This document shows positions 5,335 to 21,391 of a DNA stretch of 24,319 nt, piece by piece (position 1 is the stretch's first letter; each line of letters starts with the position of its first letter). Position numbers and translations under genes: made by a program. Under the pieces are notes generated by a model. That model was not told the DNA's origin, did no database searches, and was given only the letters and a program-made list of their open reading frames with translations. Origin of the DNA: a virus; IMG/VR virus record IMGVR_UViG_3300024999_000391, positions 1-24,319 of that record; one strand, given 5' to 3'.

Positions 5335-7959
5335 TCAATAGATTATCACTTGCGGGGTCCAGCCGGAAGGCCCGGTATAAACATCCAGTTCGCCAAACGG
5401 TTCAATCGGCAAAGTAAGGGCCGAATTATCCTGGATCACGCCGGTCACATCCAGCAAACCCCCGTAAAACAGCCGGGCATCGCTCACGGTTGCCGAAGCA
5501 TGGGTAAGCCTGACAGTTGTTGCATCCTGCCTTGCCCCGGTTGCCGCTATCCATGAAGACCCGTTATAGACTTCAAAGCCGGTGATCCCGGTTGCCGGGG
5601 TGTAATCTGTAGCAGCGGAGTTTAAGGCTATGTGTGTATCGGTATGCTCAGCATCAACGATGGTGTACCCTTCCGCCCGTGGCCCTCTCCAGTATGTATA
5701 ATCACCCGTTCCGACTTCGTGATAGGCGATTGATTGAGCGGCGCGAACCGCCTCAATTTCTTGGGATGCTTCTGTCATATGCCAATGATAATATGTTCCA
5801 GCGACGTTCTCATTGTATAACTCAAGATCGTAGGTCGAGTGGCTGTAATATTTGTAATCCGATTCTGACTCATTCACAAACTGCAATTGCGCCAGTCGAA
5901 CATTTGCGGCACCTGCGTCGGTCTGTTGATCTGCGTCAGGCAACCCAACAACGAAAATAGAAAGATTCGCATTATTTGTATCTGATTGGAGGTCTCCATA
6001 TAGATCAATCAAACCATTGTAATAATCTGTTTGGCTAATACTCCCAATAGCCTCGTTGTGTCCTTGATACCACAATGTATAATTTGCTTTAATCCTAGAA
6101 ATCGGTTCTGATATTGCAAGGGCCGCCTGGAGTTTTTCATACATATTGTAGGTAGCGTCGGACGCCCCGATCCAGTACCCCTCGCCAATGTCATATGCCT
6201 CATATAATGCCGTAGATGCATGACCTGCGTTAATTACTCCGACGACACACCCGATGGCCGTGTGCAGCATATTGGCAAAAACCGGCCCCCCGTCGCCAGT
6301 CATAGTTACCCATGATGTAGTCGTAAATTTTCGCGTTAAATCCGAAGGCGTCTCATCGAGAGATCCGCTATACGGCATATAGTTAAACCAGTATTCCATC
6401 CATGATTGCCCAGCAGCTATGACCACAATCCCAACACTGATATCATTTGAGGTAGCCGATTCATACCCTGGGTCATCTTTATCACGAGCCACAAATTGAT
6501 ACCAATAATCACCTGATGGGATGTTCGTCAGTCGCCCTGTGTATGTGCCACTGTTTAGCGTCACTGAGGAAAGTGATTTCCAGTTTCCCCCACTAAGCGG
6601 AACAACTGCCGATGTATCTCTTCGGATTGCCTGAATTTCGATTTCATCAGTCGCAGGGAAGTTATATGTTCCGGTGAATTCCAACTCTCCTTGATCATTT
6701 GAATCCCTGGCAATAACCCTGCCGTCCTTCATGGAGTTCGTGGTTTCATTTATGGTTATGACGCTTTCGGTCATTGCGTCACAGCCGATATCCCACTTAT
6801 TTCCGATTTTCAGGACGCGGGTTTCGCCGTCGATATCGTCCGTAAATGTAGCGGAAAGATCCGTCCCTTGTCCGGCTGCAAGGGTGTCCGGCTGGTCAAG
6901 GTGATAGCCGTCCGCCTCGTAGTCAACCGCTGCATTAAGGACATTTGTAGTCTGGTTTATGGTATCAGTTCCGCCTGAATTGGCGTCCGTCATGGCAACT
7001 GCAATTGTATTTTTCACATTCGCAATCGCGGTTGTCCCGCTGGTTGCGGAAACCCGGACATCCGAAAACCCGGACCCTACAATTGTGCAATTATAAATTT
7101 CAGCCGTTACCGTACCGGCCACTGTATTTATAATTCGGATACCGGCCTTGTTGGCATTCGACCCACCCGACGTATCTTTTATTAAATTATTATAAAAATA
7201 CCCGGTGACGTCGGAAGCTGCACCATAATATAAAATGCCATTTGCAAAACTGGTACCCGTTCCGGTACAATCGTAAATCGTGCATCCAGCAACATATAAA
7301 TTGTTAAAATTACCTCTAATGCCTACTCCAGAGGTATTTACCCCGGTCGAGACGGCTTTAACCCCTATATCATAGATAAAAAAATTATCTTCTGCTACGC
7401 TGAAAATATAAACATTCCCGGCGTAAGATTTTTCAAAACGCATTCCAGTGGTCTCTGTGCCGCGATTGCCGGGAGCCGCGATTATCCCACGGCAGTACTC
7501 AAATGCCGTTGTATTTGTAGCCCCGGATATGGTTACGTTATAGTCTGCAAGTACCAGATCGTCCGGACCCATTAAAATAAATGAACAAGCTACCGCCGTT
7601 CCGCTGTTGATTGTGCCGGTGATGCTGGAAACAGATAAGGAAACCCCGGAATTGACCGCCGTAATAGTCAGTGTTTGCCCGCCGCATACAACTTTTGACG
7701 TGTTAGCCTCACAGCCTTCAAAGGGTGCGGTGGACGTGACGTAAAGCGTATTTCCTGAGCTGTCTTGGTCCGTTGTCGTGATGGCGTTAAGGCTTCCAGC
7801 CGTTTGAGAAACCCAAGCGGATACTTCGGTAGACTGGAATGCACGGGTGACATCTCCAATCGTATGATACACAGCGGCTGCCGGAAGAGTCCGGGAGGTT
7901 GCCGCGAGCGCCGAAGCCGTCCAAACCAGAAAGAAAATCGTGAGTAAGAATTTTTTCAT
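5335..7959 (-). CDS. Secreted-type tail fibre/receptor protein: beta-helix plus SASA-like carbohydrate esterase (874 aa)
   Basis: I place the start at ATG 7959, which has AGGTG just upstream and begins a signal peptide (MKKFLLTIFFLVWTASALAA). A longer frame to 8115 overlaps the previous gene and would bury this peptide. Residues 130-400 look like a right-handed parallel beta-helix (repeats such as LYVAGCTIYDC and AEIYNCTIVGSG), closed by DIDGETR and WDIGCDA. Residues 510-750 match sialate O-acetylesterase (SASA, SGNH-type) blocks: AGQS with likely nucleophile S519, WYQGHNEA at 630-637, and HWHMT with likely H727. Such enzymes deacetylate surface sugars, so receptor binding and modification at the tail end is the likely role. 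A C-terminal beta domain follows. The Sec signal is unusual for a virion protein. Confidence 0.75.
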   Translation of the reverse strand: MKKFLLTIFFLVWTASALAATSRTLPAAAVYHTIGDVTRAFQSTEVSAWVSQTAGSLNAITTTDQDSSGNTLYVTSTAPFEGCEANTSKVVCGGQTLTITAVNSGVSLSVSSITGTINSGTAVACSFILMGPDDLVLADYNVTISGATNTTAFEYCRGIIAAPGNRGTETTGMRFEKSYAGNVYIFSVAEDNFFIYDIGVKAVSTGVNTSGVGIRGNFNNLYVAGCTIYDCTGTGTSFANGILYYGAASDVTGYFYNNLIKDTSGGSNANKAGIRIINTVAGTVTAEIYNCTIVGSGFSDVRVSATSGTTAIANVKNTIAVAMTDANSGGTDTINQTTNVLNAAVDYEADGYHLDQPDTLAAGQGTDLSATFTDDIDGETRVLKIGNKWDIGCDAMTESVITINETTNSMKDGRVIARDSNDQGELEFTGTYNFPATDEIEIQAIRRDTSAVVPLSGGNWKSLSSVTLNSGTYTGRLTNIPSGDYWYQFVARDKDDPGYESATSNDISVGIVVIAAGQSWMEYWFNYMPYSGSLDETPSDLTRKFTTTSWVTMTGDGGPVFANMLHTAIGCVVGVINAGHASTALYEAYDIGEGYWIGASDATYNMYEKLQAALAISEPISRIKANYTLWYQGHNEAIGSISQTDYYNGLIDLYGDLQSDTNNANLSIFVVGLPDADQQTDAGAANVRLAQLQFVNESESDYKYYSHSTYDLELYNENVAGTYYHWHMTEASQEIEAVRAAQSIAYHEVGTGDYTYWRGPRAEGYTIVDAEHTDTHIALNSAATDYTPATGITGFEVYNGSSWIAATGARQDATTVRLTHASATVSDARLFYGGLLDVTGVIQDNSALTLPIEPFGELDVYTGPSGWTPQVIIY

Positions 7960-7966
7960 TCGGCAC

Positions 7967-9115
7967 CTATGGGACCAACTGGATGACAATTGCCACCGAT
8001 AATCCATTTGGCGGCGTCCCGGAATGCACGGCGTCGACATCGACATAAAGAATATCTCCCACCGCCAAATCATCATTCGACGTGTCGACCGTTTCGTCCT
8101 GGGCGAAAAACTCATCCCCTATCGTCACTTTGGTTGATAGCGCATCGACATCGGTTCCAGCCCGCCGCCGCCTGACCTGAATATCAGTTGTTCCGGTAAT
8201 CCCTTTATCGTCCACGGTTGCCACAATATCAATGATGTTATATCCGGTGAGCGCTATCGGGATGCCGGTGGTTCCGTCGCCCACGGTTACCGCCTGATCA
8301 CTCCGGAAAAGGACAATTGAGGGGTATCTGATGGCATATCCAGATCCAGCCAGTGCGTTCGGGGTGACTGCCAATATCTCACTCGTTCCGGCCGTAACCT
8401 CGCTACCGATTGCCAGCTCAACAACCCCCTTGACGGTCGTGGAGGCGTCAGATTCATCGGCGTGCAACTCAGAATCCCGCGCAATATCAGCATGGATAGA
8501 AAGCGTATCGCCAGTGAGAACAATCTCGTTCGCAGTCCCGGCCAAGTTGGTGTCATCTGATATGTCAATTCCGGATAAATCGGCCCCTGTGTGCGCATGG
8601 GAGGCTGCCGCTGCCCCAATGTCTGTGGGCGATATGGCATCACCGCCCGCTGTGGCATGTTCGCTTGCATGGGTTTCTTCTTCAAGGTCTGCTGTGATGT
8701 CTGTCCCGGCGTTCTGCTCTCCAGATTTCAGGATATTTGCGTCCGCTGGTTCATAAACCCCTGCCCCGATAATGGCCTGGATTTCCGCGCTGGTGTCAAC
8801 CGTTGGATCGGATTCAGCCAGCAAATACGCCGGGACATTGATCAAATCTCCAAAGTCATAATCCCATGGGGTTGTCCATGCGCTGCCCGTCGACATGGCT
8901 ATGCCGGCGGATGGATATGTCATGCCTCCGCCAGTCGGTGCGGCTGGTATCCACGATCCATCACTTTGCAAGGTCAACACGTCACCAGCATTCCCGCCCG
9001 TAACGGTGATGACGTCAACCTTGGCCTTGTCCTCGTCAGTGTAGTCGTTAAAAGACCAGCCAAATGCCGCCGAAGACCAACACAAGACCGCCAAAACAAT
9101 TAATATTCTTTTCAT
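7967..9115 (-). CDS. Fibre-like protein with signal peptide (382 aa)
   Basis: ATG 9115 overlaps the upstream TAA as TAATG. It begins MKRILIVLAVLCWSSAAFG, a clear Sec signal peptide with a predicted cut after residue 19. An earlier in-frame ATG at 9136 would add seven residues before the basic start. The mature part is Ala/Gly/Thr/Asp-rich. It has a GDVLTLQSDGSWIPA segment, a SHAHTGADLSGIDISDDTNL segment, and one phage tail-fibre repeat (DASTTVKGVVELAIGSEV through LAVTPNAL, residues 223-254). The last 120 residues are beta-rich and probably globular. Position just before the esterase protein suggests that the two assemble together at the tail tip or fibre. Confidence 0.7.
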   Translation of the reverse strand: MKRILIVLAVLCWSSAAFGWSFNDYTDEDKAKVDVITVTGGNAGDVLTLQSDGSWIPAAPTGGGMTYPSAGIAMSTGSAWTTPWDYDFGDLINVPAYLLAESDPTVDTSAEIQAIIGAGVYEPADANILKSGEQNAGTDITADLEEETHASEHATAGGDAISPTDIGAAAASHAHTGADLSGIDISDDTNLAGTANEIVLTGDTLSIHADIARDSELHADESDASTTVKGVVELAIGSEVTAGTSEILAVTPNALAGSGYAIRYPSIVLFRSDQAVTVGDGTTGIPIALTGYNIIDIVATVDDKGITGTTDIQVRRRRAGTDVDALSTKVTIGDEFFAQDETVDTSNDDLAVGDILYVDVDAVHSGTPPNGLSVAIVIQLVP

Positions 9116-9822
9116 TACGCCGCCCCCCCGCGCCACGTCTTTGTTCCGTCGATGATATGGAACATATCCGATGCATAATCATACTCCAACGTCACCGAAG
9201 AAAATTGTTCAGTTCCGGTCAGTTTCGTGTGTGTCGCACTCCCGAATGTCGTTGTTTCGCCATCAGCCGCTATGATATCCACATCACCGAGGCCCTTTAT
9301 GATCACTGTGATTCGCGCCCCATCATAGGCCGCCGTCATAACCGGCATAGTCAACGTTTTCAGAGTCGCAGCGTTCACCCGGATGGAAGGCCGATAAAGA
9401 TCTGTGACCAAAACCTGATAGTCGTCTGTAACTGTTTTCGGCAGTGCCAGACTTCCAAGCGTCGTCACGCCGTCGTAAACCTCTTCGCTGACCGTCAGGG
9501 TCATTTGAGCAATCACCCGGCCATCGGTGTAGGTCGTGTCATAGACGACCAATTCCGCCTTTGTGTCTTTCCCGGCTGTCAAAGTCAGCAGCCCAATGTC
9601 GATTAAAATTTTTCCGGTAGCCGCGTATGTTGTCCAGTTAAAACATTCCGGATTCGCCACGCTGTCCGCATATTCAGCGTCAGCCGTTGACGATGCGATA
9701 TATTTTATAAAGCATCTCGATATCGCGGCCATTTGCTCCGTTGAGTATTTGCGCCCGTCAATCGTTGTGATTTCCACCGTGAACGGGCTGTTATGGCCCT
9801 TGTAGACCTTATATGCCGCCAT
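9115..9822 (-). CDS. Hypothetical tail-tip/fibre protein (235 aa)
   Basis: The ATG at 9822 directly follows the previous stop, with GGAGG overlapping the end of that gene. The N-terminus (MAAYKVYKGHNSPFTVEITT, then MAAISRCFIKY) has the look of small baseplate or fibre-anchoring domains that sense a polymer of beta strands. The C-terminal third (KTLTMPVMTAAYDGARITVI) resembles the short beta domain repeated in many phage head and tail fibres, ending in a DMFHIIDGTKTW motif. No catalytic pattern is visible. The role as a connector between the tail tip and the two following fibre proteins is inferred from order. Confidence 0.55.
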   Translation of the reverse strand: MAAYKVYKGHNSPFTVEITTIDGRKYSTEQMAAISRCFIKYIASSTADAEYADSVANPECFNWTTYAATGKILIDIGLLTLTAGKDTKAELVVYDTTYTDGRVIAQMTLTVSEEVYDGVTTLGSLALPKTVTDDYQVLVTDLYRPSIRVNAATLKTLTMPVMTAAYDGARITVIIKGLGDVDIIAADGETTTFGSATHTKLTGTEQFSSVTLEYDYASDMFHIIDGTKTWRGGAA

Positions 9823-11007
9823 TTATGCCTCCGTGATGTCCATAATTTGCTGCAAAACCGAAACTGTGAGCGTTATCATGCCCGCCGTCATTGAGTCGTC
9901 GCCACCGTTCCATGTTACTGTATCGCCCGGTCTAACCAGAAAATTAACACCACACCGAACCCGACGCTTCCCGTCAACCTGCTGCGAAACCGTTGAAATA
10001 TCAGTCAATGCCCTGGTCGCCGGGCTTGCATAAGTGGTTGTCTGATGCCCTGATAGCCGGATGGTGTAAGCGGTCCCGCCCTGGTCAATCTGTAAGGAGT
10101 CAAAATCAGCCCGCGCAATCTCAGCGTAATTAATCGTTCCGTCCGGGAACAGGCTTGCGCCCTTACTGACAACGATATCCCAGGTTGTTCGATCCGCAAT
10201 ATCATCTGCATAAATTGATGCGTTAGGGACTACAACCTCAAGATATGTTGGGACTCCATTCCTGATCCGCGCCTGAAAGCTGCTGATTGGCAAAACCAAA
10301 TCCGGGCTACCGGTTAGAACGCATTTATAAACCGTGGCAATCGGTGTTTCAGCAGATATCAATAAGCATGTCGTGTCCGGTGCAGTTATTGTAATTACCG
10401 GTGAGATATGATCGAGAATGGACCCAATTGCGTTTTCCGGCACCGTGAATACGATAACTGGCGGAACATGTGTGACCAGTTGTCCAGTAAACCATGTCGG
10501 CACTACCCCGAGGCTGGCTGATATCGCCGGGTGCGAGAATACACCAACCGCAGGTTCGTGCTGGATGATTAAAATCCCATCATATTCAACAGACAATTCG
10601 GCAGTAAACGATACATCCGGCGGGACATGCATCGCCATAACCATCAGTTGAATATCCGCGCCCTCGAAATCAATTACAGGCGGGACATGATCAACCGACG
10701 TAATTACGGTTGCCGTGGTATCTGATGAAAAAGACGCTGCGGGCGGAACATGTGTAATAATTAGGATGCCATCGTATTCTATTGCTGATTCAGAATAAAA
10801 CACGGCCTCCGAGGCCGTGTGCTCAACAATTATAATCTCATCACCAGTGATTACTGGATCTACTGATATGAAAAAAACTTCCGGCGATACATGCGAAATT
10901 GATACATCACCGCCCAAATCTTCAGACGATATTTCACCGGAACCAGGGACTATTTCGCCGTCCGGCCATGTGAAAACTTGGATATAATCAAATATTGTCG
11001 TTGCCAT
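9823..11007 (-). CDS. Tail-tip protein with eight HVPP repeats (394 aa)
   Basis: Residues 36-225 hold eight imperfect repeats of 20-30 residues, each built around H-V-P/S-P-x-x-x-F (HVPPAASF, HVPPVIDF, HVPPDVSF, HVPPVIVF and variants). The key histidines fall at 39, 63, 86, 107, 127, 150, 180 and 200. Two copies also share an EYDGILI segment. The pattern suggests repeated beta strands, such as small Ig-like units or a solenoid. Residues 226-394 form a separate domain (SSFQARIRNGVPTYLEVVV, GKRRVRCGVNF) that looks like a conserved tail-tip domain of other siphophages. No enzyme motif is seen. The gene lies midway between the tape measure and the fibre genes, so a virion tip role is likely. Confidence 0.55.
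   Translation of the reverse strand: MATTIFDYIQVFTWPDGEIVPGSGEISSEDLGGDVSISHVSPEVFFISVDPVITGDEIIIVEHTASEAVFYSESAIEYDGILIITHVPPAASFSSDTTATVITSVDHVPPVIDFEGADIQLMVMAMHVPPDVSFTAELSVEYDGILIIQHEPAVGVFSHPAISASLGVVPTWFTGQLVTHVPPVIVFTVPENAIGSILDHISPVITITAPDTTCLLISAETPIATVYKCVLTGSPDLVLPISSFQARIRNGVPTYLEVVVPNASIYADDIADRTTWDIVVSKGASLFPDGTINYAEIARADFDSLQIDQGGTAYTIRLSGHQTTTYASPATRALTDISTVSQQVDGKRRVRCGVNFLVRPGDTVTWNGGDDSMTAGMITLTVSVLQQIMDITEA
10333..10902 (-). repeat. Coding tandem repeat array (eight HVPP units)
   Basis: At DNA level the units share a diverged core reading GGCGGRACATG on the plus strand, seen near 10461, 10619, 10679 and 10742. Weaker copies lie near 10403, 10545, 10812 and 10887. Spacing is about 60-90 bases. 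The copies are diverged, so this is an old or selected protein repeat rather than a recent slippage tract. Confidence 0.7.
10791..10820 (-). terminator. Terminator-like hairpin inside the HVPP gene
   Basis: On the minus strand ACACGGCC pairs with GGCCGTGT around a 5-nt loop; as a pure inverted repeat it is 10 bp with one central base (10800-10820). It is followed at once by TTTTATTC. This is the layout of an intrinsic terminator in the direction of late transcription, but it lies within the coding sequence (residues 63-69). Activity is uncertain. Confidence 0.35.
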
Positions 11008-11014
11008 TATAGTC

Positions 11015-11839
11015 TTAAACGTTGATATTGTTATATATGTCTAAAATTGCAATGCCATCTATAACCCCATCAAAAGAGGCGGCTGGAATGTCCGTAGCCA
11101 TTTCGTACCCACTGACATACACAGAATACAAATTAGAGCCGCTTAAACGAAGCGTATCGGCCAAAAAAACCGGTTCTAATGCTATTTCAGAAATATTTTC
11201 TGTCCCTATCCGACATTCAATCCATCCAACAGACGAATGAACCCAGAACCGAGTCCGATAATACCCATCAAAAAACAATCCGAAATTGACATATACGTCG
11301 GGTTCGGTAAGCATGTTGAACGCTGTAAATGCAGCGGCCAACATGTGCGCAAAATCTGCCCCCGTTGCCCCGGCATGGTATCCCAACGGATAGAAAGTGG
11401 TGGAGGTTAAAGAGCCTGGGTTATCCCCAAAATTACCCGCAAAATCATCCTGATACCACAATTCATCAAACTCGCCGGCAAAGGTTTCATTGAATTTTGC
11501 AGTATTATTCGGCGTCATTTGGAATTCGGAAAAACCTATTCTGGCCGCTGCGATTTTGTATAATTCAAGAATCAATTCATCGCCACTATCGACATCAATT
11601 TCAACTGTGACGGTTTTTGCAGCTTCTCCCTGCCATGTGATATCGGCCATATCAACAATGGCAACAGTTGTGGTTGTGATAGACGATTGCAATACTATAT
11701 GCCCATCTTCGTCCCATGAATAAATTGTAAGAGTAACCGTAACTGTGCCAACAGACGAATAAACATCTTGTATGTAGATGAAATCGTCTTCGGTTAGAAC
11801 ATCAAACTCATATGAGCCTTGGTCCTGATTTAACCCCAT
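11015..11839 (-). CDS. Hypothetical virion protein (274 aa)
   Basis: The protein is acidic and beta-rich throughout (VGTVTVTLTIYSWDEDGHIV, then TVTVEIDVDSGDELILELY). It has no signal peptide, membrane segment or catalytic motif. Aromatic Gly-rich turns (FGDNPGSLTSTTFYPLGYHA) suggest a lectin-like or jelly-roll fold that could bind sugars, but this is only a look. It lies between two tail-tip genes with spacings of 7 and 14 bases, so it probably belongs to the same assembly. Confidence 0.5.
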   Translation of the reverse strand: MGLNQDQGSYEFDVLTEDDFIYIQDVYSSVGTVTVTLTIYSWDEDGHIVLQSSITTTTVAIVDMADITWQGEAAKTVTVEIDVDSGDELILELYKIAAARIGFSEFQMTPNNTAKFNETFAGEFDELWYQDDFAGNFGDNPGSLTSTTFYPLGYHAGATGADFAHMLAAAFTAFNMLTEPDVYVNFGLFFDGYYRTRFWVHSSVGWIECRIGTENISEIALEPVFLADTLRLSGSNLYSVYVSGYEMATDIPAASFDGVIDGIAILDIYNNINV

Positions 11840-11853
11840 TGCATCACCTGTGA

Positions 11854-12366
11854 TTAAAGGACGATGGACGCCTTCGCAAGCCCATTGGTTAAATCTATTC
11901 TGAACATCTTGCCTACTTCAGTGGAATAATCCGCCCCAAAATTACTTGCCAAAATAATCCTTGAATCAGCGGGGGTTGTGGTATTGTACTGCATAAAAAC
12001 AGCACCACCCGTAGTGGCCATGGTCCCGCCGGTCGCTGTCCAAGTAGCAATAGTCGGTGCGGTTGTTGTTAATGATATAATTACATTCGTACTTACAATG
12101 GCAGCAGATACAGCAATCGGAGTTATCAAAATGCCGCCCGTGTTACCAGTCGTAATGGCCGTATAACCATTGCCGCCTGCAATTTCATAAGCTGACACGT
12201 CCGACCAAACCGAATCATTCTCAGGGTCAAATGATGTGAGCTCCGCCCAATCAGTCCGCCATGTCGTATTCATAAGTGCGACCCGGATCGGGTCGGTGGT
12301 CACATCATGGATTTTTTTAAGGGCATCGATAATAAATTGAGCCGCGTATTTCGATTCATATGCCAT
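11854..12366 (-). CDS. Phage structural protein (170 aa)
   Basis: The start at ATG 12366 has a strong ribosome site (AAGGAGAG) eight bases upstream. The in-frame ATG at 12402 lies in the upstream gene and is less likely. The pattern AYESKYAAQFIIDALKKIHD, PIRVALMNTTW, then YEIAGGNGYTA with repeated Thr/Ile strands follows a common family of phage structural proteins that open with a small helix and a 'DPIKVALM' strand. The rest is beta-sandwich-like and Thr-rich. Function in the virion is unassigned. Confidence 0.6.
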   Translation of the reverse strand: MAYESKYAAQFIIDALKKIHDVTTDPIRVALMNTTWRTDWAELTSFDPENDSVWSDVSAYEIAGGNGYTAITTGNTGGILITPIAVSAAIVSTNVIISLTTTAPTIATWTATGGTMATTGGAVFMQYNTTTPADSRIILASNFGADYSTEVGKMFRIDLTNGLAKASIVL

Positions 12367-12388
12367 AGTTAACACTCTCCTTATTGTT

Positions 12389-13936
12389 TTAACAAATTTC
12401 AATACTGTCTATAATTGCTTCAAATTCCGGGCTATTACCTTCATGATTCCCGACAAAACAAACCACCTCAACATTATAAACGTTCACCGGGAAGGGGAAA
12501 TCAAGATACCTGGCATTCCCGGACCCGAATGGCAAATATGCAAAATAGGCGTGATCGCTGGTTACCTTCCAATACCCACCCGGCACAAAGCTTTCCTGAT
12601 ACGCATGAGATACCGGTGTTCCGTAAATTGTTTCCGCTTCATCCGCCCAACAGTATTTCCCCTCAAGATAGGTCGCTGAATTGAACACCCCGGACAAAGT
12701 GCTGCATAAAAAATTCTCGCTGAAAAAATAAATGGTAAAAAAATATGTTTCCCCAGATGCTGGCTCCTTTGCACTTATCGTTACAGCAACGGATGTCCCG
12801 AACGAATATCGCCAAAAATTCGTTGCCCGGCAATCGGTTACAATATCCGAAACCGTTATCCGGGCCCTGAGTGCGCCCGGCCTGAAAATAGGTTGAGGTT
12901 CAACCCCCCACCCGGTCGGATATGGGAAAGTCGCCGCTGCTGAATACGGGGTTGACGGCTCTTCATCCCCTAAATAACCATATGTGACCGGCACCGCGAA
13001 TTGCGGCTTATAAAACCGGATTTGTCCGTTATCGTTTTCAATCGTAAACGCTCCGTCCGGATATGGGAAACCCGGTTCACCGCCGCCCGGATCTTGCAAA
13101 ACCCAGACCCTTAACGGCGATAATCTTTCAACTGTTGAACCGGTCGGATGCCCGGCGACCGGCACTCTGGTTGCACTTAATGCCGCGTCAAAATCCCACG
13201 GTTCGGCCCAGCAACATTGTTTCGGTTCTTCCTCGAATCCGATAACTTTCGGGGTATCCCATGAGTACCCCTCAAAAAACACAATCACCCGGTCGGAAAC
13301 GACGAATGCCGCCGCGTTACAGTCCATGTAATCAATCGGTACGTCGTTGATGCCGTAAGCTCCATTAATCAAGCTTAAGGCTTGTTGGCTGCTGGATATC
13401 GCATCAAGAGTTACGCTGCATGTGTCGGCATCGTAATCAATGGCCGTGATCGCTCCATAGAGATGGGTTGGTTTCCACTTTTGGGCGCCGGGCAGCATCG
13501 CCAGATTGTAAAACGTGGCCGCCGAATCCTGAGCCATAAGCGGCGTTATTTGCCCGTCTCTGGCCGCATCAAACACGGCGTTATCCTCATACCCCGGCTG
13601 TATATTGACCCCGTTTGCCCGTTCCCGGCCTATCTCTATCAGACCTACGTCACCGGTCAAATCAGTGGTTAAATCGGCACACCAGGCCGTTACGGTGGCA
13701 TCCGCCGGCACATGGTCAATATCGGTCAAATAATCAATTCGCTTCTGGACAGACAAAAGCTGTAATTGCAAAAGCCTTTTTTTTAGGGCATCCGTCTCGT
13801 TCAGAATTTCGTCAGTGAGCAAGGTGGCCCTGGCCTGTAGCACAGCAATAGCCGCATCCAGCGCCTCCCGGTTATATTTCAGGGTGACGTTATATTGCCC
13901 ATCTGCGATATGGCTTATGATGGTTCCCTTGCCCAT
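12389..13936 (-). CDS. Large tail-tip protein with N-terminal coiled coil (515 aa)
   Basis: The N-terminal 20 residues form a small strand domain (MGKGTIISHIADGQYNVTLK). Residues 20-75 form a long helix rich in Leu heptads (ALDAAIAVLQARATLLTDEI, then LLQLQLLSVQKRIDYL), likely a trimeric coiled coil. Residues 75-240 contain AWCADLTTDLTG, GVNIQPGYE and ITAIDYDADTCSV, which look like conserved phage tip domains. The rest is aromatic and beta-rich with several cysteines. The gene overlaps the upstream stop as TAATG. It sits two genes after the tape measure, where lambda would have its tip complex genes, but it does not resemble lambda L, K, I or J. Confidence 0.6.
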   Translation of the reverse strand: MGKGTIISHIADGQYNVTLKYNREALDAAIAVLQARATLLTDEILNETDALKKRLLQLQLLSVQKRIDYLTDIDHVPADATVTAWCADLTTDLTGDVGLIEIGRERANGVNIQPGYEDNAVFDAARDGQITPLMAQDSAATFYNLAMLPGAQKWKPTHLYGAITAIDYDADTCSVTLDAISSSQQALSLINGAYGINDVPIDYMDCNAAAFVVSDRVIVFFEGYSWDTPKVIGFEEEPKQCCWAEPWDFDAALSATRVPVAGHPTGSTVERLSPLRVWVLQDPGGGEPGFPYPDGAFTIENDNGQIRFYKPQFAVPVTYGYLGDEEPSTPYSAAATFPYPTGWGVEPQPIFRPGALRARITVSDIVTDCRATNFWRYSFGTSVAVTISAKEPASGETYFFTIYFFSENFLCSTLSGVFNSATYLEGKYCWADEAETIYGTPVSHAYQESFVPGGYWKVTSDHAYFAYLPFGSGNARYLDFPFPVNVYNVEVVCFVGNHEGNSPEFEAIIDSIEIC

Positions 13937-14283
13937 TATTCCACATCCAGCCTTGATTTTTTCCGCAGTGTCATAGTAGCCGTGTGTCCGTTATATCTCA
14001 ATCGGTAGATATACCCCGAATAAACGCCCGTGCTGGTGGATATGGTTAAACCTGTGTAATTACGGTGTAACCGCTCAAGGATTAAAGCGTCACCATCCGA
14101 AACAACCGCCTTGAACGATAGCTCTTCATCGCCCACCGAAACGCCCGAATGAGTATGCGCTGTGGTCCCGTCCAGGCACATGGTTTTTGATGCCCGCGCT
14201 TTTGAATCAATCCGGTTTGTTTCTCCCTGTTCCTGAAGGATAACAGCGTCTGAACTGGCCGTGGTCGTGGTTAAAGAGATCAT
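13936..14283 (-). CDS. Small tail protein (115 aa)
   Basis: The ATG at 14283 overlaps the tape-measure stop (ATGA), so translation is likely coupled. The protein is short and beta-rich (LTISTSTGVYSGYIYRLRYN, then ATMTLRKKSRLDVE). It directly follows the tape measure, the slot of distal tail or tip initiator proteins in many siphophages (lambda gpM position). No family signature is certain. Confidence 0.55.
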   Translation of the reverse strand: MISLTTTTASSDAVILQEQGETNRIDSKARASKTMCLDGTTAHTHSGVSVGDEELSFKAVVSDGDALILERLHRNYTGLTISTSTGVYSGYIYRLRYNGHTATMTLRKKSRLDVE

Positions 14284-17090
14284 ACGCTCGGCAATCCTAA
14301 TAAAAATTCCTGTGCGTTTTCATTGGCCCGGATTTGCACCTTTTCAATTATCTGCCACATGACCAACTCGAGGGCCGGTTCAAGCCCGGTGGTATCAATT
14401 TTTAATTCTGCCAGTTCCCCGGATTCAATCTTTTCATTTTTCAACCGCATGTATTCGGTTTGTGCTGCCGTGAGCGCCACTTGCGCGTCAATCAATTCGT
14501 TTTGCTTGTCTTGCTGTTCTTCGAGCCGATCCATTAAAAACCATTTGTCAGCCTGCCCCATGCCGTCCAGGTTTGAGGCCAGCGAATCGAACATGTCCGC
14601 AACGCCGCTTGCCACTTCAGAGACGGACTGCCCCACACTGTCAAACGCCGCCTCTGTGGTTTTCGCCGCTGCCTCAATGTCAGCGATATCGACCTTTGCG
14701 CTCCATTCCATCGCTGTTTGGATGGTTTCGGCATTGGTTTTAATCGTGGTGAGGTCGCGTTCAAGATCAATTTTGGCCGCCTCCAAGACGGTCAGTTTTA
14801 CCTCGACTTTTTTTTCTTTAGGGACGTTCTTGTCGATTTCGCCCTCGATATCAATCCAGTTGGTTCCGTCCAAGGAATATTGACCCTCAACGGGCGGAAT
14901 ATTGGCGATGTCTTTTTGCAGGGCTTCGTCTTCAAGTTTCGCCCATATCGGCAGGTCAATCCCATCTTCGATGAGGGGGATGGATAGCAGGTCGTCAAGA
15001 TTGGTTTTGTCGAATGTCGCCTTAAATTCCCATTCCGTTTTGAAATCCGGCTGGAATATTGGAAGGGTTAAAAGATCGTCAAGGGTTTGCGTGTCTGTTT
15101 TTGCCGTTACGGATAAATTGATGGGTTCGGGCGGTTCGCCAAAAAAGAAGTCAAGAAACTTTTGTGTTCCGGGCGTTAGGTCGTCATAGCTAGGGAACAT
15201 CGAAACGTCGTCTTTTTTGATGGTTGCGATTGCGTCTGAAATGTTATAGATCGCCGCCGCTACCGCAGCCAACCCCAACGCATACGGGCCAGCCGCACCC
15301 AAAAGCGTGAACGATGAACCGAGGGCGGACAGTTTGGAAGTAAGGGCGAGGGTCAACACACCGTCAAGTAAACTGATGCCAGATGCAAGTGTTTTTACCG
15401 TTGTGATTAGGGCACCGGATGTCAATACTGCCGTTACCCCTATTAAAACGTCTTTGAACGTATCCAGCGACTTAAAAAGAACGTTGATATCCATCGCCCA
15501 CCCGGATAGCTTTTGGCCTTCCGCCCCCATCTCTCCGAAGTTTTCCCCGATCTCGCCGATAACGGTCAAAAGCGGTTCCAGCTTTTCGATGAATCCGGCT
15601 GTAAAATTGGTCATGCCGGTAAGAATGTTGATGACTTTCTGAATGGCGGTTTCAAGCCCGTCGACAGTTGTCAAATCCAGATCACCGCCAAAAATCGCGT
15701 TAAGGGCTCCGCCGACTTCAAGGCCCATGGATTTGAAAGAGGCCACCAGTTTTGAAAAATCAACACCGTCAAGGGCTTCCGGCAAATTTTCCGCAATATC
15801 CAAAAATAATTGCTCAGTATCGCGGGCAAATTCCCCGATGGCGTCCAGAATCGGATCAAACGTTCCGGCATCCACTTCGTCGGAAATCGTACGGAAAACT
15901 TCAGCCAACCCATGGACAGCCGGGGCGATGTCTCTCGATGTTGCTTCCCCGATCTCGATAGCAACAGACTGGAAAGCCGACCGGAAAGACCGCAAGGCCC
16001 CCCCGATACCGGATTCCATTTGTTCGGCAATGTCGCCGGTGATTCCGCCCAGGCTTTTGATTTTTTCTTGCAACCCTAAAACAGCCTCGGAACCCTGGCC
16101 AAGCAGCGCCGCCATTTGCGGCCCGCCACGCTTCCCGAATATCTCAATCAGGATTGCCGTTCGGTCTGCCGGGTCTTGGATTTTTTCAAGACCCACCTTC
16201 ATTTGATCCATAATTACCGGGAATGGCAGAAGTTCGCCATTGACATCCTTGACATTGACGCCCAAAGATTTCAGGGCATTTGCAGAATCGGCGATATCAA
16301 TGCCAAGTTCGGTTGTATCAACCCCTAATTCTTTCGCCAGTTTCCCGAAATTCCCGGCAGGTGCGACCAACGCAAGCAGAATATTTCTAAGGGCCGTGCC
16401 GCCCATTTCCGCCTGATAACCAGCGTTTCCAAGTACGCCCAAAATGGCCGATGTTTCGTCAAGATCGTACCCAAGGGACTTCGCCACCGGGCCGACCATT
16501 TTAAAAGCCTGCCCGAGTTGTTCAAGATTGGTGTTGGAATTGGTGAAAGTTGCGGTTAAAACGTCATTTGCTTTTGACAGGTCGCCCACCGCTACCCCGT
16601 AACCGGTCATGATATTGGTCACTATGTCGGCGGCTCGGCCTAAATCCATACCGGCAGCTTGCGCTAAATTGAGAACTTCAGGTAGGGCGGTCAGTGCGTC
16701 AGTGGTTTTAAACCCGGCAAGGGCTAAAAACTCAAGCCCCTGCGCCGCTTCTGTTGCCGTGTAGCGGGTTTTTTCGCCCAGGTCTTTGGTGAGGGCCGTC
16801 AGTTGCGCGTATTCGGAGGAGTTGGCGCCGATAACGCCCTTAACCTTGAGCATAACATCTTCAAAGTTTTTGAACTCGTTGACCGCATATGCAAGGCCAG
16901 CAACGCCCATTGCAATCAACGCGGCTTCCGCTTTGGCAACCTTCATACCAAAATCAGCAAGCGGTTGTGTAGCCCCCTGGATTTTGCTCGAAAACTGATC
17001 AAAATCTTTATTAAGATTGATCATGGCCTTGTTTAGGCTGACATCTTCGCCTAAAAGTAAAACTTTGATTGTTCGTTCAAGATCGGCCAT
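14280..17090 (-). CDS. Tail tape measure protein, TP901-like (936 aa)
   Basis: Tape measure proteins set tail length and occupy the tail tube before DNA ejection. Residues about 75-300 carry the TP901-type core: a FEDVMLKVKGV opening, TRYTATEAAQGLEFLALAGF, AADIVTNIMTGYGVAVGDLS and AEMGGTALRNILLALVAPAG. The middle has a hydrophobic stretch (VLIGVTAVLTSGALI, LLGAAGPYALGLAAVAAAIY) likely to enter the membrane. The end is helical and coiled (DKQNELIDAQVALTAAQTEY). At about 0.15 nm per residue, 936 residues predict a tail near 140 nm. The gene follows the tail assembly chaperone pair, as in lambda. The ATG at 17090 has an AGAAGAG ribosome site. Confidence 0.93.
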   Translation of the reverse strand: MADLERTIKVLLLGEDVSLNKAMINLNKDFDQFSSKIQGATQPLADFGMKVAKAEAALIAMGVAGLAYAVNEFKNFEDVMLKVKGVIGANSSEYAQLTALTKDLGEKTRYTATEAAQGLEFLALAGFKTTDALTALPEVLNLAQAAGMDLGRAADIVTNIMTGYGVAVGDLSKANDVLTATFTNSNTNLEQLGQAFKMVGPVAKSLGYDLDETSAILGVLGNAGYQAEMGGTALRNILLALVAPAGNFGKLAKELGVDTTELGIDIADSANALKSLGVNVKDVNGELLPFPVIMDQMKVGLEKIQDPADRTAILIEIFGKRGGPQMAALLGQGSEAVLGLQEKIKSLGGITGDIAEQMESGIGGALRSFRSAFQSVAIEIGEATSRDIAPAVHGLAEVFRTISDEVDAGTFDPILDAIGEFARDTEQLFLDIAENLPEALDGVDFSKLVASFKSMGLEVGGALNAIFGGDLDLTTVDGLETAIQKVINILTGMTNFTAGFIEKLEPLLTVIGEIGENFGEMGAEGQKLSGWAMDINVLFKSLDTFKDVLIGVTAVLTSGALITTVKTLASGISLLDGVLTLALTSKLSALGSSFTLLGAAGPYALGLAAVAAAIYNISDAIATIKKDDVSMFPSYDDLTPGTQKFLDFFFGEPPEPINLSVTAKTDTQTLDDLLTLPIFQPDFKTEWEFKATFDKTNLDDLLSIPLIEDGIDLPIWAKLEDEALQKDIANIPPVEGQYSLDGTNWIDIEGEIDKNVPKEKKVEVKLTVLEAAKIDLERDLTTIKTNAETIQTAMEWSAKVDIADIEAAAKTTEAAFDSVGQSVSEVASGVADMFDSLASNLDGMGQADKWFLMDRLEEQQDKQNELIDAQVALTAAQTEYMRLKNEKIESGELAELKIDTTGLEPALELVMWQIIEKVQIRANENAQEFLLGLPSV

Positions 17091-17092
17091 GA

Positions 17093-17278
17093 TTATCTCT
17101 TCTGTTTTCTGCGTGCCTCTCGGTCATCGTAAAAGAGACACCATAGTGATATTTCATCTTCGGTCAGATGGTTGTACGGGAAAACGTCCGGGCGGATCTC
17201 AAACAGGAAACGCCCCCTGGATTCGGCCATAATCAGGCTTGCCCGGATGCCTTCTTGCTCCCAGAGGGCTTGGATTCC
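17093..17278 (-). CDS. gpT-like extension of the tail assembly chaperone, read by -1 frameshift
   Basis: In lambda, a -1 shift late in gene G makes the gpGT fusion needed for tail assembly. Here the -1 frame is open from just after a TAA near 17311 through TAA 17093. Before the G stop it reads IQALWEQEGIRASLI. After the stop it reads MAESRGRFLFEIRPDVFPYN, then LTEDEISLWCLFYDDREARR. A shift at 17275-17281 would add about 61 residues to 143 residues of G. The alternative is independent start at ATG 17230, two bases after the G stop, giving 45 residues; no good ribosome site precedes it. Position between tail tube and tape measure fits gpGT. Confidence 0.65.
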   Translation of the reverse strand, partial: GIQALWEQEGIRASLIMAESRGRFLFEIRPDVFPYNHLTEDEISLWCLFYDDREARRKQKR

Positions 17279-17706
17279 CCCGGCAATTTCCCTTTGCCGG
17301 TCAGTCGGTTAATGGTATTCGTGACCATGTACGCTTCGACCGGGAACACTTCAAAAAACTTAACGGCCTGCATCTGATCGAACTTCGGGGATACAGACCC
17401 GATTTTTAATTGCTCCACCCTCCGGGCGATTTCATCCGGCACACGGTCGTCAAGCCCGAATGCCGCCTTGACCGCTTCGATTTTTTCCGATGCGTCCGCC
17501 GATGAAATGGCCTCAATTATCCCGGCCATGTTCTTATTTTTCGCCGCCGCTTCGTTCGCCCGTGCAATTTCCGGCCCGGTAAGGCCCCGGACAATTATTT
17601 CCGGGGCCTCGCCTTCGCCAAACCATTCTTTTAAATCCGGAACCGACACGGCCTCCGTTCGGTCATCGAATTTTACTTTCTCAAAACGCTTGATATCAAA
17701 CGGCAT
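17233..17706 (-). CDS. Tail assembly chaperone, gpG-like (157 aa)
   Basis: It lies between the tail tube and the tape measure gene, the fixed place of gpG-type chaperones, which coat the tape measure protein until the tube forms around it. The protein is soluble and mostly helical (MPFDIKRFEKVKFDDRTEAV at the start, GPEIARANEAAAKNKNMAGI in the middle). It has VPDEIARRVEQL and an FFEVFPVEAYMVTNTINRL segment before a Lys/Gly/Ser tail. That polar tail (KLPGESKPSGSKKASGQA) is where the -1 frame is open, as in other G proteins. The ribosome site is GGGGGA before ATG 17706. Confidence 0.75.
   Translation of the reverse strand: MPFDIKRFEKVKFDDRTEAVSVPDLKEWFGEGEAPEIIVRGLTGPEIARANEAAAKNKNMAGIIEAISSADASEKIEAVKAAFGLDDRVPDEIARRVEQLKIGSVSPKFDQMQAVKFFEVFPVEAYMVTNTINRLTGKGKLPGESKPSGSKKASGQA
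17275..17281 (-). promoter_or_regulatory. Candidate slippery site G-GGG-GAA
   Basis: Codons CCG-GGG-GAA give the heptamer GGGGGAA in the zero frame. After a -1 slip the P-site codon is unchanged (GGG) and the A-site reads GGA with one G-U pair. It is the best slip candidate in the short window where both frames are open. It is not the perfect XXXYYYZ form used by lambda. Confidence 0.45.
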
Positions 17707-17723
17707 TTCGTCCCCCTATTCGG

Positions 17724-18977
17724 TTAAGCGTACACCCTCTTTGCCGCCTCTGATGCGGCAATCGTTACGGCTGCCGACATGGAAGCACCGGCACCATAAG
17801 ATTCAACCACGCCAACCTTACCTTGGCATAACCGATATTTTCCAGTAACAAGCCGATCCGGATAAAATTTGAACCAAAGAGTATCGTCGGCCATCAGCAG
17901 GATAAAATCATTCACGCCGTTTTCGAGTTTGGCCGCGAACGAACCGGCGCTCAAAGACTGCGACTCACTGCCGACGACTCCGCCATAAACCTGTTCGGAA
18001 GAAACGGAATAAGAGGTTGACGGGGCCACAAAGTCCGCCGCGTTCGGGATTTCAGAAAAAGCCGGGGTGTAATACGCCGCATAAACTTTCTTGGCCACGC
18101 CGCCCGTGTGAATCAGGGGCAGGGCCGAACGGAAAAGCACACCCGCATAACCCAGGGCTCCGCTCTCAACGCGCGCATAAACCGCGTCATAGGTGGGGCT
18201 GTCAAAGCGTTCGCAATGAGTGCCGACAATCTGCTTGATTTCGTCCGCGTCCACCGGGGCCGCTGTTAATGATGTGTATTTCACCTGGCCGATCTCAATT
18301 GAGGTTGTCGCAATGAAGGGAGGCCCACCGATTGCGCCGCGTGTGGTTGAAAAGGCCGTGCCCTGATAGCCCTGAACCAAAGCTAACGCGCCATTTGACG
18401 CCACGGTGATGGAACAGATTTTGTACGGGGCCGCAACTGCAACGCCTTCCATTGATCCCGCGCCGGTCCCGGTGGTTATGGTGATTGCTTCATCGTCATC
18501 ATCAAAATCGTCATTTTCGTCAACTTGGTCGATAATCCATTGCCGGGTCGTGTTGTTATACGCAATCAAAATGCCTGAGTCGGTTGTGGTTCCTCCCACA
18601 ACAGTTTTGCCGATATCAGACGCAACGCAATTAGTGTACCCTGCCGCCGCCAAAGTCAACAGCAGGTGGGTTGCGTCGCCCCGCGTAACTGCGAAGTCAG
18701 CATCCGCCACAACAGTGGTCAAAACCCCTGCCAGATAGCAAGTCAGCCCGGCCACGTCCACCACGTCATTTGAGCCGGAAACCGCTTCCGTTACCGCGCC
18801 ACCAGATGCAAGGCCGTTTGGTTTGATATCCGGGGTTTTCCCGGATGCGTCAGACCATAATTCATCGGCTGAGTTAAAATTGAGATGGTCGCCATCGTCT
18901 GTGAGTGCCACAAAATCAACAAAATCCTGACCGGCCTCACCGTAAAGAATCGCATTTGATGCGGTTTTCGCTTTCAT
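17724..18977 (-). CDS. Major tail tube protein (417 aa)
   Basis: The gene lies between the gpU-like terminator and the G-like chaperone, the slot of lambda V. The protein starts MKAKTASNAILYGEAGQDFV and has a long beta-rich body. It is longer than lambda V (246 residues). Part of the surplus is a domain at residues about 118-176 (VASDIGKTVVGGTTTDSGIL through TITTGTGAGSM). This resembles the 'VTGGTSGATG' module found in many phage structural proteins and carries a highly acidic loop (DENDDFDDDDE). It probably projects from the tube surface. The C-terminus is Ala-rich. Tube identity is inferred mainly from gene order and size. Confidence 0.65.
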   Translation of the reverse strand: MKAKTASNAILYGEAGQDFVDFVALTDDGDHLNFNSADELWSDASGKTPDIKPNGLASGGAVTEAVSGSNDVVDVAGLTCYLAGVLTTVVADADFAVTRGDATHLLLTLAAAGYTNCVASDIGKTVVGGTTTDSGILIAYNNTTRQWIIDQVDENDDFDDDDEAITITTGTGAGSMEGVAVAAPYKICSITVASNGALALVQGYQGTAFSTTRGAIGGPPFIATTSIEIGQVKYTSLTAAPVDADEIKQIVGTHCERFDSPTYDAVYARVESGALGYAGVLFRSALPLIHTGGVAKKVYAAYYTPAFSEIPNAADFVAPSTSYSVSSEQVYGGVVGSESQSLSAGSFAAKLENGVNDFILLMADDTLWFKFYPDRLVTGKYRLCQGKVGVVESYGAGASMSAAVTIAASEAAKRVYA

Positions 18978-18981
18978 GTTT

Positions 18982-19428
18982 CTAATCCCCCTGTTCGTAT
19001 GGGTTGCCTATTAAAGTTTGGTAATGAATATTCATCATTATTGAGACTTGATAAGCCTCATCGTCAGAAGCCGGGTAATCAATCGTTCCCCCGGCGTATT
19101 CCCTATCATTTGAAAAATCGTCTTCCGCGTTCATGGCCGTGTTTATCAACTGTCCCCGGATGTCTTCAGCAATCTGGAAAACGTCCGCGCCGACCGCCAG
19201 CAGGCCAACATATTTAAACTCGACCTGAACTTTGCAATCCTGCTCGCCGTATTTGTCCCGCCAGCTTTCCTCTTCGCCTGCAAACACTGATATGCCCGGC
19301 ATTTCGTTTTTTTTGTAACGGGTTTTTCCTGGGTTCACGGATATTCCGCCCGTTGTTATCCACTCTTCGGCCTCGAAATAATCTACCCATGCCGCTAAAA
19401 TCTGTTTTCTGATCGTATCGTCAGCCAT
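18982..19428 (-). CDS. Tail terminator, gpU-like (148 aa)
   Basis: Terminators cap the head-proximal end of the tail tube and join it to the head. The protein opens with a helix (RKQILAAWVDYFEAEEW) and has GISVFAGEEESWRDKY. It then has a strand-helix set (CKVQVEFKYVGL, FQIAEDIRGQLI) and a final strand (AYQVSIMMNIHYQTLIGNP). This order of strands and helices, the length, and the position between gpZ-like and tube genes match the gpU group. Its ATG overlaps the preceding stop (TAATG). Confidence 0.7.
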   Translation of the reverse strand: MADDTIRKQILAAWVDYFEAEEWITTGGISVNPGKTRYKKNEMPGISVFAGEEESWRDKYGEQDCKVQVEFKYVGLLAVGADVFQIAEDIRGQLINTAMNAEDDFSNDREYAGGTIDYPASDDEAYQVSIMMNIHYQTLIGNPYEQGD

Positions 19429-20039
19429 TACAGGAGCCCGTTCCGTTGTTTAAAAATATAATCCGTCTGCCGTTCAAGTTCGTTCATCAGCCGTTTGTCC
19501 GCGCCTGTCTGCAATTTCTCTTGATTTTCCGGGCGGGCGTAAAGATCTTCAATTCGCGGGCCGTAAAGCTCAGTTATATGCAGCCGAGTTGATGCTTTCC
19601 TTTCAAAAACGCCCTTGTGACCTGCCGGTTGGGTTTTAGAGTTCTTGGGCATGACCGCCACAAAGCCGCCGTGTCCGAATTGACCATGGACCGGCTTTTT
19701 CTCGCCCTTAATCACTTCCGCCTGAATCAGAGACTTCCTTTTTGGCTGGACGCTGGACGGCGAAACCTTAAAATCAATCAACGGAATTGGCTTACCCTTT
19801 GATTCCGTCCATGCCGTCATATCGCCGGTATTCGCTTTCCGCACCGTGATATTTTTCCGCGCCGCTGTAGCTTTCACCGTGTAGACCGTCCGGGCAATTT
19901 CCACCATGTCAGTACGCACGCCGTCCACCACCCGGTTAATCGACCGCACAACAGCAAGCGGCATCCCGTTAGAGATGTTCCGCAGATCATTTTTGATGCG
20001 GTCAATATCCGATTGGTCAATCTTTATGGTGAGCGCCAT
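19428..20039 (-). CDS. Minor tail protein Z-like (203 aa)
   Basis: The protein follows the gpZ family layout: an N-terminal helix (DIDRIKNDLRNISNGMPLAV), a paired 'RSINRVVDGVRTDMVEIAR' helix, TARKNITV-like strands and the conserved GKPIPLIDFKVSP segment. It ends with a helix (RLMNELERQTDYIF). In lambda, gpZ is needed so that the DNA end is placed correctly in the tail for injection. It lies between the FII-like and U-like genes, as in lambda. ATG 20039 abuts the upstream stop. Confidence 0.8.
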   Translation of the reverse strand: MALTIKIDQSDIDRIKNDLRNISNGMPLAVVRSINRVVDGVRTDMVEIARTVYTVKATAARKNITVRKANTGDMTAWTESKGKPIPLIDFKVSPSSVQPKRKSLIQAEVIKGEKKPVHGQFGHGGFVAVMPKNSKTQPAGHKGVFERKASTRLHITELYGPRIEDLYARPENQEKLQTGADKRLMNELERQTDYIFKQRNGLL

Positions 20040-20384
20040 TTATGCGTCCCTGCTTAAAATTTCGTGACTCGTTACAGTGATCCGGTAAGCCGTGTTCTGG
20101 CCGACCGGGTTATAAGATTCAACCGTCCACACAGCGCCGTCAAAAGTAATGGTGTCGCCGTCCGGGTCAGGCGTTGAGATCGCCGCCGCGCTGATCGTTA
20201 CCCGCGCCCGCTTCATCAGGTGGATTTCCGAACCGATATAATCTTTGGTGTACTCTTCGCGGATAACAACAGCAGACACAGACGCGCCCGTCCCGCCATA
20301 AGGCGTATAGGTGACGGTTTCCCCGAACTCATCCGAGTTGATGAAAACCGCCAAGTCTGCCGCTAATATATCCTTGAAAGTCAT
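20040..20384 (-). CDS. Head-tail joining protein, FII-like (114 aa)
   Basis: I use ATG 20384, two bases after the upstream stop; an in-frame ATG at 20411 lies inside the upstream gene. The small beta protein (FKDILAADLAVFINSDEFGE, then GDTITFDGAVWTVESYNPVG and AYRITVTSHE) has the size and strand pattern of lambda gpFII (117 residues), which sits at the head-tail interface. Its place just before the Z-like gene agrees. The opening helix followed by 'F...GE.VTYTP' is typical of this group. Confidence 0.7.
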   Translation of the reverse strand: MTFKDILAADLAVFINSDEFGETVTYTPYGGTGASVSAVVIREEYTKDYIGSEIHLMKRARVTISAAAISTPDPDGDTITFDGAVWTVESYNPVGQNTAYRITVTSHEILSRDA

Positions 20385-20386
20385 GG

Positions 20387-21391
20387 TTAATAATCGCCCA
20401 GGTTGATCCATGTGATCGTCATGGTTCCGGTAATGGCGTGTGTCGTCGCATCTGTATTGCTGGCATCCGGGACGGCAACATTGACAAATAAATCAACCGG
20501 CGTTGTTGTGCCGTCAAACTGAGCGGCCGCTGCCAAAGCCGTTTTCCATGTGAGCGTCAATGTCGTGCTGGACACCGTGTCAAGGGTGGTTTTAGGTATA
20601 ATGTCGGCCTCAGTGCTCGTTAAATCAGCATCAGCCGCCTGAGTTCCGTCCACCGTGCCCACGCTGACATAGTAAATATCATTCGTGCTGGCATTGTAGA
20701 CGTTGTTCGTGACGGTTGAGGCGTCAATCGTTACGCCCAAAACGCTTAACCGGCCCTCGGGCATATCGAACACTTTGACCCCCGCTGACTTACCGCCGTC
20801 ATCAACGTCAATGTCATGGTCGCCAGTCAGTGTGAACGTGATAACGCTTTTATGCAGCACCCCGTCGCCGTACTCAACGACCGTGCATTTACTCGCCACA
20901 ATTGCGCCGTTTCCGGATGTGGTTGTCGGCACATTAATCACGGGGCTGGTCAGGGTTTTATTCGTCAATGTCTGGATAAAGTCTTTAAAGACAAATTCAT
21001 CAGCCCCGGTCAGAAGCGGCAACGTTACCGTTCGATCAGCCGCCAATTCGGACGGTGCAAAAACATATTGATGGTTTGCGCTGGTGTCGTTAATTTGCGG
21101 GGTGGTCAGCACCGCGCCCGAAACGTTACCACTTAAACTTGCCCCTGTAATTGTCGGGCTGGTCAGCGTCTTATTTGTCAGCGTTTGCGCTGTGTCTTCC
21201 GTGACAACCTGATCATTCGCCGTCAAGGTCGGATGTTCCAGGTAATAAGTTGATTTTGCGCCGTTGGAATACCCATACCATTTCGGGGTTGCTATTCCTC
21301 CGGGCCGTTCCGATACGGTGATGGCCCATGCCACACCCACCATCGAAAACACCAGCGCCAGAACCATAAAAAGCATTTTCTTATTTTTCAT
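20387..21391 (-). CDS. Signal-peptide-bearing 'TLTNKTLTSP' protein in the capsid cluster (334 aa)
   Basis: ATG 21391 has GAGGTG upstream and begins a strong Sec signal peptide (MKNKKMLFMVLALVFSMVGV, cut after AWA near residue 23). A longer frame from 21436 would hide it. The mature part has two copies of TLTNKTLTSP (residues 70-79 and 141-150) and SELAADRTVTLPLLTGADEF, hallmarks of fibre-like proteins in many phage genomes. A beta-rich C-terminal domain (about 160-334) follows. It occupies the lambda FI slot between capsid and FII-like genes but does not resemble gpFI. A capsid-surface fibre is the simplest role, yet the signal peptide argues for export. A strong hairpin separates it from the capsid gene. 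Confidence 0.65.
   Translation of the reverse strand: MKNKKMLFMVLALVFSMVGVAWAITVSERPGGIATPKWYGYSNGAKSTYYLEHPTLTANDQVVTEDTAQTLTNKTLTSPTITGASLSGNVSGAVLTTPQINDTSANHQYVFAPSELAADRTVTLPLLTGADEFVFKDFIQTLTNKTLTSPVINVPTTTSGNGAIVASKCTVVEYGDGVLHKSVITFTLTGDHDIDVDDGGKSAGVKVFDMPEGRLSVLGVTIDASTVTNNVYNASTNDIYYVSVGTVDGTQAADADLTSTEADIIPKTTLDTVSSTTLTLTWKTALAAAAQFDGTTTPVDLFVNVAVPDASNTDATTHAITGTMTITWINLGDY
20942..20971 (-). repeat. Second TLTNKTLTSP coding repeat
   Basis: These 30 bases encode residues 141-150 and resemble 21155-21184 (residues 70-79). The amino acids are identical while several bases differ, which points to selection on the protein motif rather than recent duplication. Confidence 0.6.
21155..21184 (-). 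repeat. First TLTNKTLTSP coding repeat
   Basis: Partner of 20942-20971. Both copies share the plus-strand core GGGCTGGTCAG and differ at third positions elsewhere. Confidence 0.6.

Follow-up and report, generated by a model that had tools for sequence, protein, structure and literature searches.

Three proteins encoded in a phage virion gene cluster, here called A, B and C, have N-termini that look, from their sequence, like genuine signals for Sec export and cleavage by signal peptidase I. The window analysed is the whole 24.3-kb stretch of IMG/VR record IMGVR_UViG_3300024999_000391; its phage is known from environmental DNA alone, and the presence of a tape measure gene identifies the window as the virion cluster of a long-tailed phage. 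Comparison with related loci indicates that the signal trait is lineage-wide and transferable, and not peculiar to one phage. It is very probable that the signals are real, kept in function, competent for cleavage and common to neighbouring fibre-like genes of unrelated phages, and with equally high confidence the proteins carrying them are predicted to be exported.

The N-termini were evaluated with a score composed of the n-region charge, a 10-residue hydrophobic window and a cut-site matrix covering −5 to +2, trained on 30 known Escherichia coli signal peptides. A first version recovered the exact cut in 24 of the 30 in leave-one-out runs and was too strict at −1; the final score has wider, hand-set weights at −1 and −3, and a value of at least 6 served as survey criterion. 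With the 52 proteins of lambda, the five top scorers were Lom, Rz, Bor, a weak orf314 and Rz1, four of which are known exported or membrane-anchored proteins. Among the 26 genes of the window, only A (14.2), C (11.6) and B (5.75) exhibited signal-peptide-like N-termini, the other 23 all scoring 0.7 or less, and the starts at 7959, 9115 and 21391 and the cut motifs (ALA, AFG and AWA) named in the original prediction were found where it had placed them. The n-region, core and −3/−1 features of Sec/signal peptidase I substrates are clear in A and C and weak in B, whose score is low because of a Gly at −1 and a Trp at +1. None of 1900 shuffled proteins passed the survey criterion, nor did any of the 380 genes on 25 control phage contigs. 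These contigs had been picked for a shared fibre motif or for a signal-less form of protein D (see below) and are not a random phage sample.

The gene of protein C has a good ribosome site 5' of its start and lies immediately 3' of the capsid gene, which is the place of FI in lambda. Its relatives were collected by capsid-anchored and C-anchored searches of viral contigs and genomes, followed by a profile search of the collected loci, and the counts refer to 16 distinct phages, window included, with readable post-capsid sequence and a clear call. The post-capsid gene begins with a Sec/signal peptidase I signal in 15 of these 16 phages (the window, L016, L017, L019, L020, L021, L022, L023, L024, L026, L027, L028, L034, L086 and L088) and has no signal in L029; L031, on a contig of a Nitrospiria genome bin, has a borderline signal and was left out of the count. 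When 13 proteins of the family were aligned on their conserved mature start, the mean pairwise identity was 18% in the hydrophobic core versus 55% over mature positions +1 to +16. The n-region charge ranged from +2 to +4; in all 13 proteins, position −3 was occupied by A or V and position −1 by A or G. As judged from this alignment, the pattern is that of the evolution of cleaved Sec signals and not of membrane anchors or protein-binding helices. The residue at −2, normally unconstrained in signal peptides, is aromatic (W, Y or F) in 13/13 proteins (positions 21326-21328 in the window).

Behind the conserved N-domain, the C-termini of the family form a mosaic of differing, mostly beta-type sequences. 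Protein C of the window matched the tail fibre profile phrog_38058 (E = 1e-13); signal-less viral proteins, among them those of L007 and L008, contain its middle part, and its C-terminal part occurs, also signal-less, in Pseudomonas phage Rollin and in podovirus ctgrD200. The LTNKTLTSP motif was considered as the cause of the signal and rejected, as viral proteins sharing only this motif have no signal. An AlphaFold model of C built from 14 sequences had a mean predicted local distance difference test (pLDDT) value of 45, too low for a fold search, the only confident part being a helix at residues 2-26. Sequence searches for solved-structure relatives of A, C and D found none, and queries with the capsid protein and the C N-domain gave no match in cultured phage records. 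In L016 (the same phage as L006 and L030), an apparent lysis cassette stands between C and the head-tail connector (6789-9031) and contains, by eye, a small membrane protein, a DUF1353-like protein, a probable lipoprotein and an M15-peptidase-like endolysin.

Several of the relatives encode a second small signal protein, D, with no counterpart in the window. The scan for D gave 156 viral contigs, 80 of which were read; a signal was present at 22 of these 80 loci and absent from the other 58. Signal-bearing forms start with MKK, a hydrophobic stretch and A/(A)GTVT, the slash marking the predicted cut, and most signal-less forms start directly with M-AGTVT or M-AGSVT. In the alignment, the predicted cut usually falls at the signal-less N-terminus after methionine removal, or within 1-2 residues of it. 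On the best tree of the mature domain (80 rows, including two further signal-bearing ones), the signal state changes at least 7 times, 3 of the changes being forced by well-supported branches. Pairs with and without a signal that share the same boundary were also found in the C family (L156) and in the L002/L130 post-capsid family.

The signals of D also tend to have company. Other signal-bearing genes made up 27/236 genes on contigs with signal-bearing D versus 13/549 on contigs with signal-less D (p ~1e-6, kinship ignored), and counted by contig they were present in 13/19 versus 10/48 (p = 4e-4, kinship again ignored). The co-occurring signal genes are mostly fibre-like and lie just downstream of D, and signal-bearing D stands among further signal-bearing fibre-like genes in phages with unrelated capsid types; in L091, whose capsid is of the HK97 type (PF05065), D is accompanied by three further consecutive signal genes. 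It is supported by sequence that the signals are gained and lost as a cassette and clustered in the fibre/decoration module. At L110 (8356), L136 (8408) and L147 (8367), D is signal-less and the next long fibre-like gene bears a signal (...FA/SVTVTVNGTNHTIPQTNEKG), and these mixed states mean that the signals within one module are not always switched together.

Further D loci were noted beside these. In L156 (7866-11581), D and two more genes have signals, and a signal-less protein with a C-type N-domain stands at the tail end beside an endolysin-like gene. A Mu-like prophage in Nitrospirota genome G271 (L163, 7092-8772) has D and a fibre-like gene, both signal-bearing, and is our best lead to a host phylum, Nitrospirota. 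In cultured phage records, the D query found nothing except a weak match in Methanosarcina virus MetMV, and D was not found in plasmids. In MetMV, which is archaeal (L080, 5953-7950), a signal-less D-like protein is encoded directly 5' of a gene whose product by eye resembles a variable fibre of the C-type-lectin type.

The original prediction had ascribed fibre-like motifs to all three proteins of the window. This holds for C and for B, which matched the tail collar fibre profile phrog_910 (E = 5e-5), both thus combining a fibre-type profile with a position in the virion cluster; protein A has instead a beta-rich part and a SASA domain. The match of A to PF03629 (E = 2.7e-9; 37.4 bits for a curated cut-off of 24.8) covered positions 67-186 of the 226 of the profile, and GQS and WYQG motifs were spotted by eye. 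By profile, A is a putative SASA-type carbohydrate acetylesterase. Its single-sequence AlphaFold model, with a mean pLDDT of 36.5, was too low in confidence for a fold search, and no relative of A was found in the contigs of related phages. In a related phage, contig G002 encodes a protein of 759 amino acids (L075, 11482-13761) in which a polysaccharide-deacetylase-like stretch was seen by eye, unconfirmed by Pfam.

The late genes of the window lie on the minus strand in the gene order of lambda, and downstream (3') of the tape measure gene come, in order, distal tail genes, B, A, a holin-like membrane protein and lysozyme. This order bears out the earlier statement that the three signal proteins are interleaved with virion genes.

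Table 1. Positions of proteins A, B and C, of their parts, and of neighbouring late genes in the window
Feature	Positions	Strand	Remarks
Protein A, 874 amino acids	5335..7959	-	Predicted signal peptide, beta-rich stem, SASA acetylesterase domain
Predicted signal peptide of A	7903..7959	-	MKKFLLTIFFLVWTASALA, predicted cut before ATS
SASA (sialic-acid-type acetylesterase) domain of A	5878..6288	-	Residues 558-694; PF03629
Protein B, 382 amino acids	7967..9115	-	Tail-collar-fibre-like
Predicted signal peptide of B	9059..9115	-	Residues 1-19, MKRILIVLAVLCWSSAAFG, predicted cut before WSF
Protein C, 334 amino acids	20387..21391	-	Predicted signal peptide, conserved N-domain of about 60 residues, mosaic beta-rich C-terminus
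Predicted signal peptide of C	21323..21391	-	MKNKKMLFMVLALVFSMVGVAWA, predicted cut after residue 23, before ITV; pattern in relatives
Conserved mature N-domain of C	21143..21322	-	Residues 24-83, TVSERPGGIATPKWYGYS...QTLTNKTLTSPTITG
C-terminal domain of C	20393..20812	-	Residues 194-333; phrog_11997-like, signal-less in other phages
Decoration-like protein	22731-23570	-	Late cluster, before the capsid gene
Major capsid protein	21453..22679	-	Phage_capsid_4, without signal; anchor for relative searches
Head-tail attachment protein (lambda FII-like)	20040..20411	-	Phage_attach/FII, PF05354; without signal
Minor_tail_Z	19428-20039	-	Late cluster
Tail terminator	18982-19428	-	By position
Major tail protein	17724-18977	-	By position
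Tape measure protein	14280..17090	-	Without signal
Small membrane protein, holin-like	4902..5318	-	One N-terminal hydrophobic stretch; by sequence and position beside the lysozyme gene
Lysozyme	4471-4908	-	PF00959

We propose that A, B and C belong to a fibre/decoration module that is exported. They would be made with cleavable Sec/signal peptidase I signals and would cross the inner membrane of their diderm host late in infection; the mature proteins would pool in the periplasm and meet the virions once the holin opens the inner membrane. C would then decorate the capsid, and B and A the tail, at or just before lysis, after which the acetylesterase of A could act on surface polysaccharide, either from the virion or as a free enzyme. 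That the mature proteins still serve the particle is suggested because their N-terminus and domains are those of signal-less relatives encoded in the virion modules of other phages, and this step is put forward tentatively. The full chain of Sec export, periplasmic pool and virion decoration at lysis is likewise a working proposal, held with somewhat less than even confidence. More generally, it is possible, with a lower expectation of being right, that assembly occurs in two compartments, heads and tails in the cytoplasm, with a coordinated fibre/decoration set directed through Sec to the periplasm for addition at lysis; the signal would then be a switchable cassette that sets where the same protein matures.

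Several observations weigh against this proposal. Heads and tails are formed in the compartment that the exported proteins leave, so a virion role presupposes a hypothetical encounter at lysis, and the assignment of the signal-less relatives to virions is itself inferred from their place in the genome and from the names of the profiles. An excess of even cysteine numbers, a mark of periplasmic disulfide folding, was looked for in the signal-bearing proteins and not found. The coupling of signals between D and its neighbours, once corrected with the tree, comes down to 3 independent pairs with good support; nearly all of them point the same way, but they are too few for significance. B scored lowest of the three, just below the survey criterion, with n- and h-regions that are typical. 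Relatives of A and B were searched among viral contigs and phage records and none was detected, so their signals are read from their own sequences, and A and B could still be moron genes.

The original prediction offered two interpretations, export by the host or a signal serving as membrane or trimer anchor; the signals look genuine, and the anchor is disfavoured. As an uncut N-terminal helix, the signal would tether the protein to the inner membrane or aid fibre trimerisation, and the helix at residues 2-26 of the C model could be taken that way, although it is equally expected of a signal peptide; Rz-like anchors also get similar crude scores. In the C family, the core drifts while the small residues at −3 and −1 stay fixed, the core is short and the cut motif follows it directly, and in D the predicted cut lies at or beside the start of the signal-less relatives, all of which makes an uncut helix very unlikely. 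Chance, through accidental hydrophobic N-termini or wrong start codons, would best suit B with its weak score, but it is hardly credible given the control genes and shuffled proteins, none of which passed, and the ribosome site 5' of C, and for C it is already contradicted by the conservation in relatives. The signals might also have come each with an acquired bacterial gene, host secretory genes captured as sporadic morons with no module-wide meaning. The absence of A and B from the relatives searched, the bacterial-type beta-rich and esterase parts of A and a protein with a surface-protein domain (P0009) would agree with such captures. C, on the other hand, is not sporadic as morons are, being encoded by the post-capsid gene of nearly all relatives, the same phage protein D occurs in signal and signal-less forms, and the signal genes cluster on the same contigs, so that capture is improbable. 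Uncut anchors, passive cargo and chance are thus the less likely explanations.

A stronger contender is that the proteins are exported and are not virion parts. C and B would attach to the host envelope or cover it, A would deacetylate polysaccharide at the surface or in the periplasm, and receptors would be masked or altered, for superinfection exclusion or to stop released progeny from sticking to debris. The role would resemble that of lambda Lom/Bor or of phage proteins that block receptors, with fibre domains as the building material. The acetylesterase domain of A speaks for such a role, as do the multi-gene operons of signal proteins just 5' of the lysis region in several relatives, and the 759-residue protein of G002, which bears a signal, belongs to the same genome part and has a choice-of-anchor Q domain, a type named after surface proteins of bacteria. 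Exported phage proteins acting on the envelope are, moreover, well known (Lom, PMC12309495). An envelope role would explain less well why C is fixed beside the capsid gene in 15/16 phages, and why the mature N-terminus seen in signal-less relatives from other virion modules is retained in C, D and the L002 family, as such a role would not need it. We regard the envelope role as a real possibility, below an even chance. The virion reading is slightly favoured over it because the same mature N-terminus and domains are kept and C stays with the capsid gene.

The assembly of tailed phages is taught as wholly cytoplasmic. In the open-licence PubMed Central literature, which leaves subscription papers and preprints outside the scope, we found no report of Sec signals on a fibre/decoration module of tailed phages and no export or maturation route of this kind, in agreement with the original prediction, which knew of none. 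Part of the particle, or a host-modifying kit, seems to exit the cytoplasm before the cell bursts, and the repeated, lineage-wide switching of the export signal would point either to a late periplasmic step of virion maturation or to a large exported toolkit for envelope remodelling. Since one and the same protein occurs naturally both with a signal and without it, the question is open to simple reporter and proteomic experiments.

The coat proteins of filamentous phages are virion proteins with signal peptides; they enter the membrane, and the particles assemble as they are extruded from the unlysed cell, whereas the phage described here is long-tailed and has a lysozyme gene. B, by its collar/fibre profile, and A, by its beta-rich part and esterase domain, resemble tail or collar fibres and tail-associated carbohydrate esterases, but ordinary members of these groups are cytoplasmic and signal-less, and the N-terminus of A and of B is a predicted signal peptide. 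PblA and PblB of the streptococcal phage SM1 also end on the host surface, which they reach through permeabilisation of the envelope by holin and lysin (PMC2920869), and thus exit without a Sec signal and from a monoderm host. The T4 antiholin RI is a late phage protein with a cleavable Sec signal (PMC8385771), as predicted for A, B and C, but is a small lysis regulator and not a fibre or decoration protein. There is also a likeness with Lom, an exported phage protein encoded between lambda tail genes (PMC12309495), and with Bor, both phage-encoded and signal-bearing, with genes within or close to the late region. Neither is fibre-like, Lom being a membrane beta-barrel and Bor a lipoprotein, and C differs from both in being fixed immediately after the capsid gene across its lineage and in having signal-less relatives.

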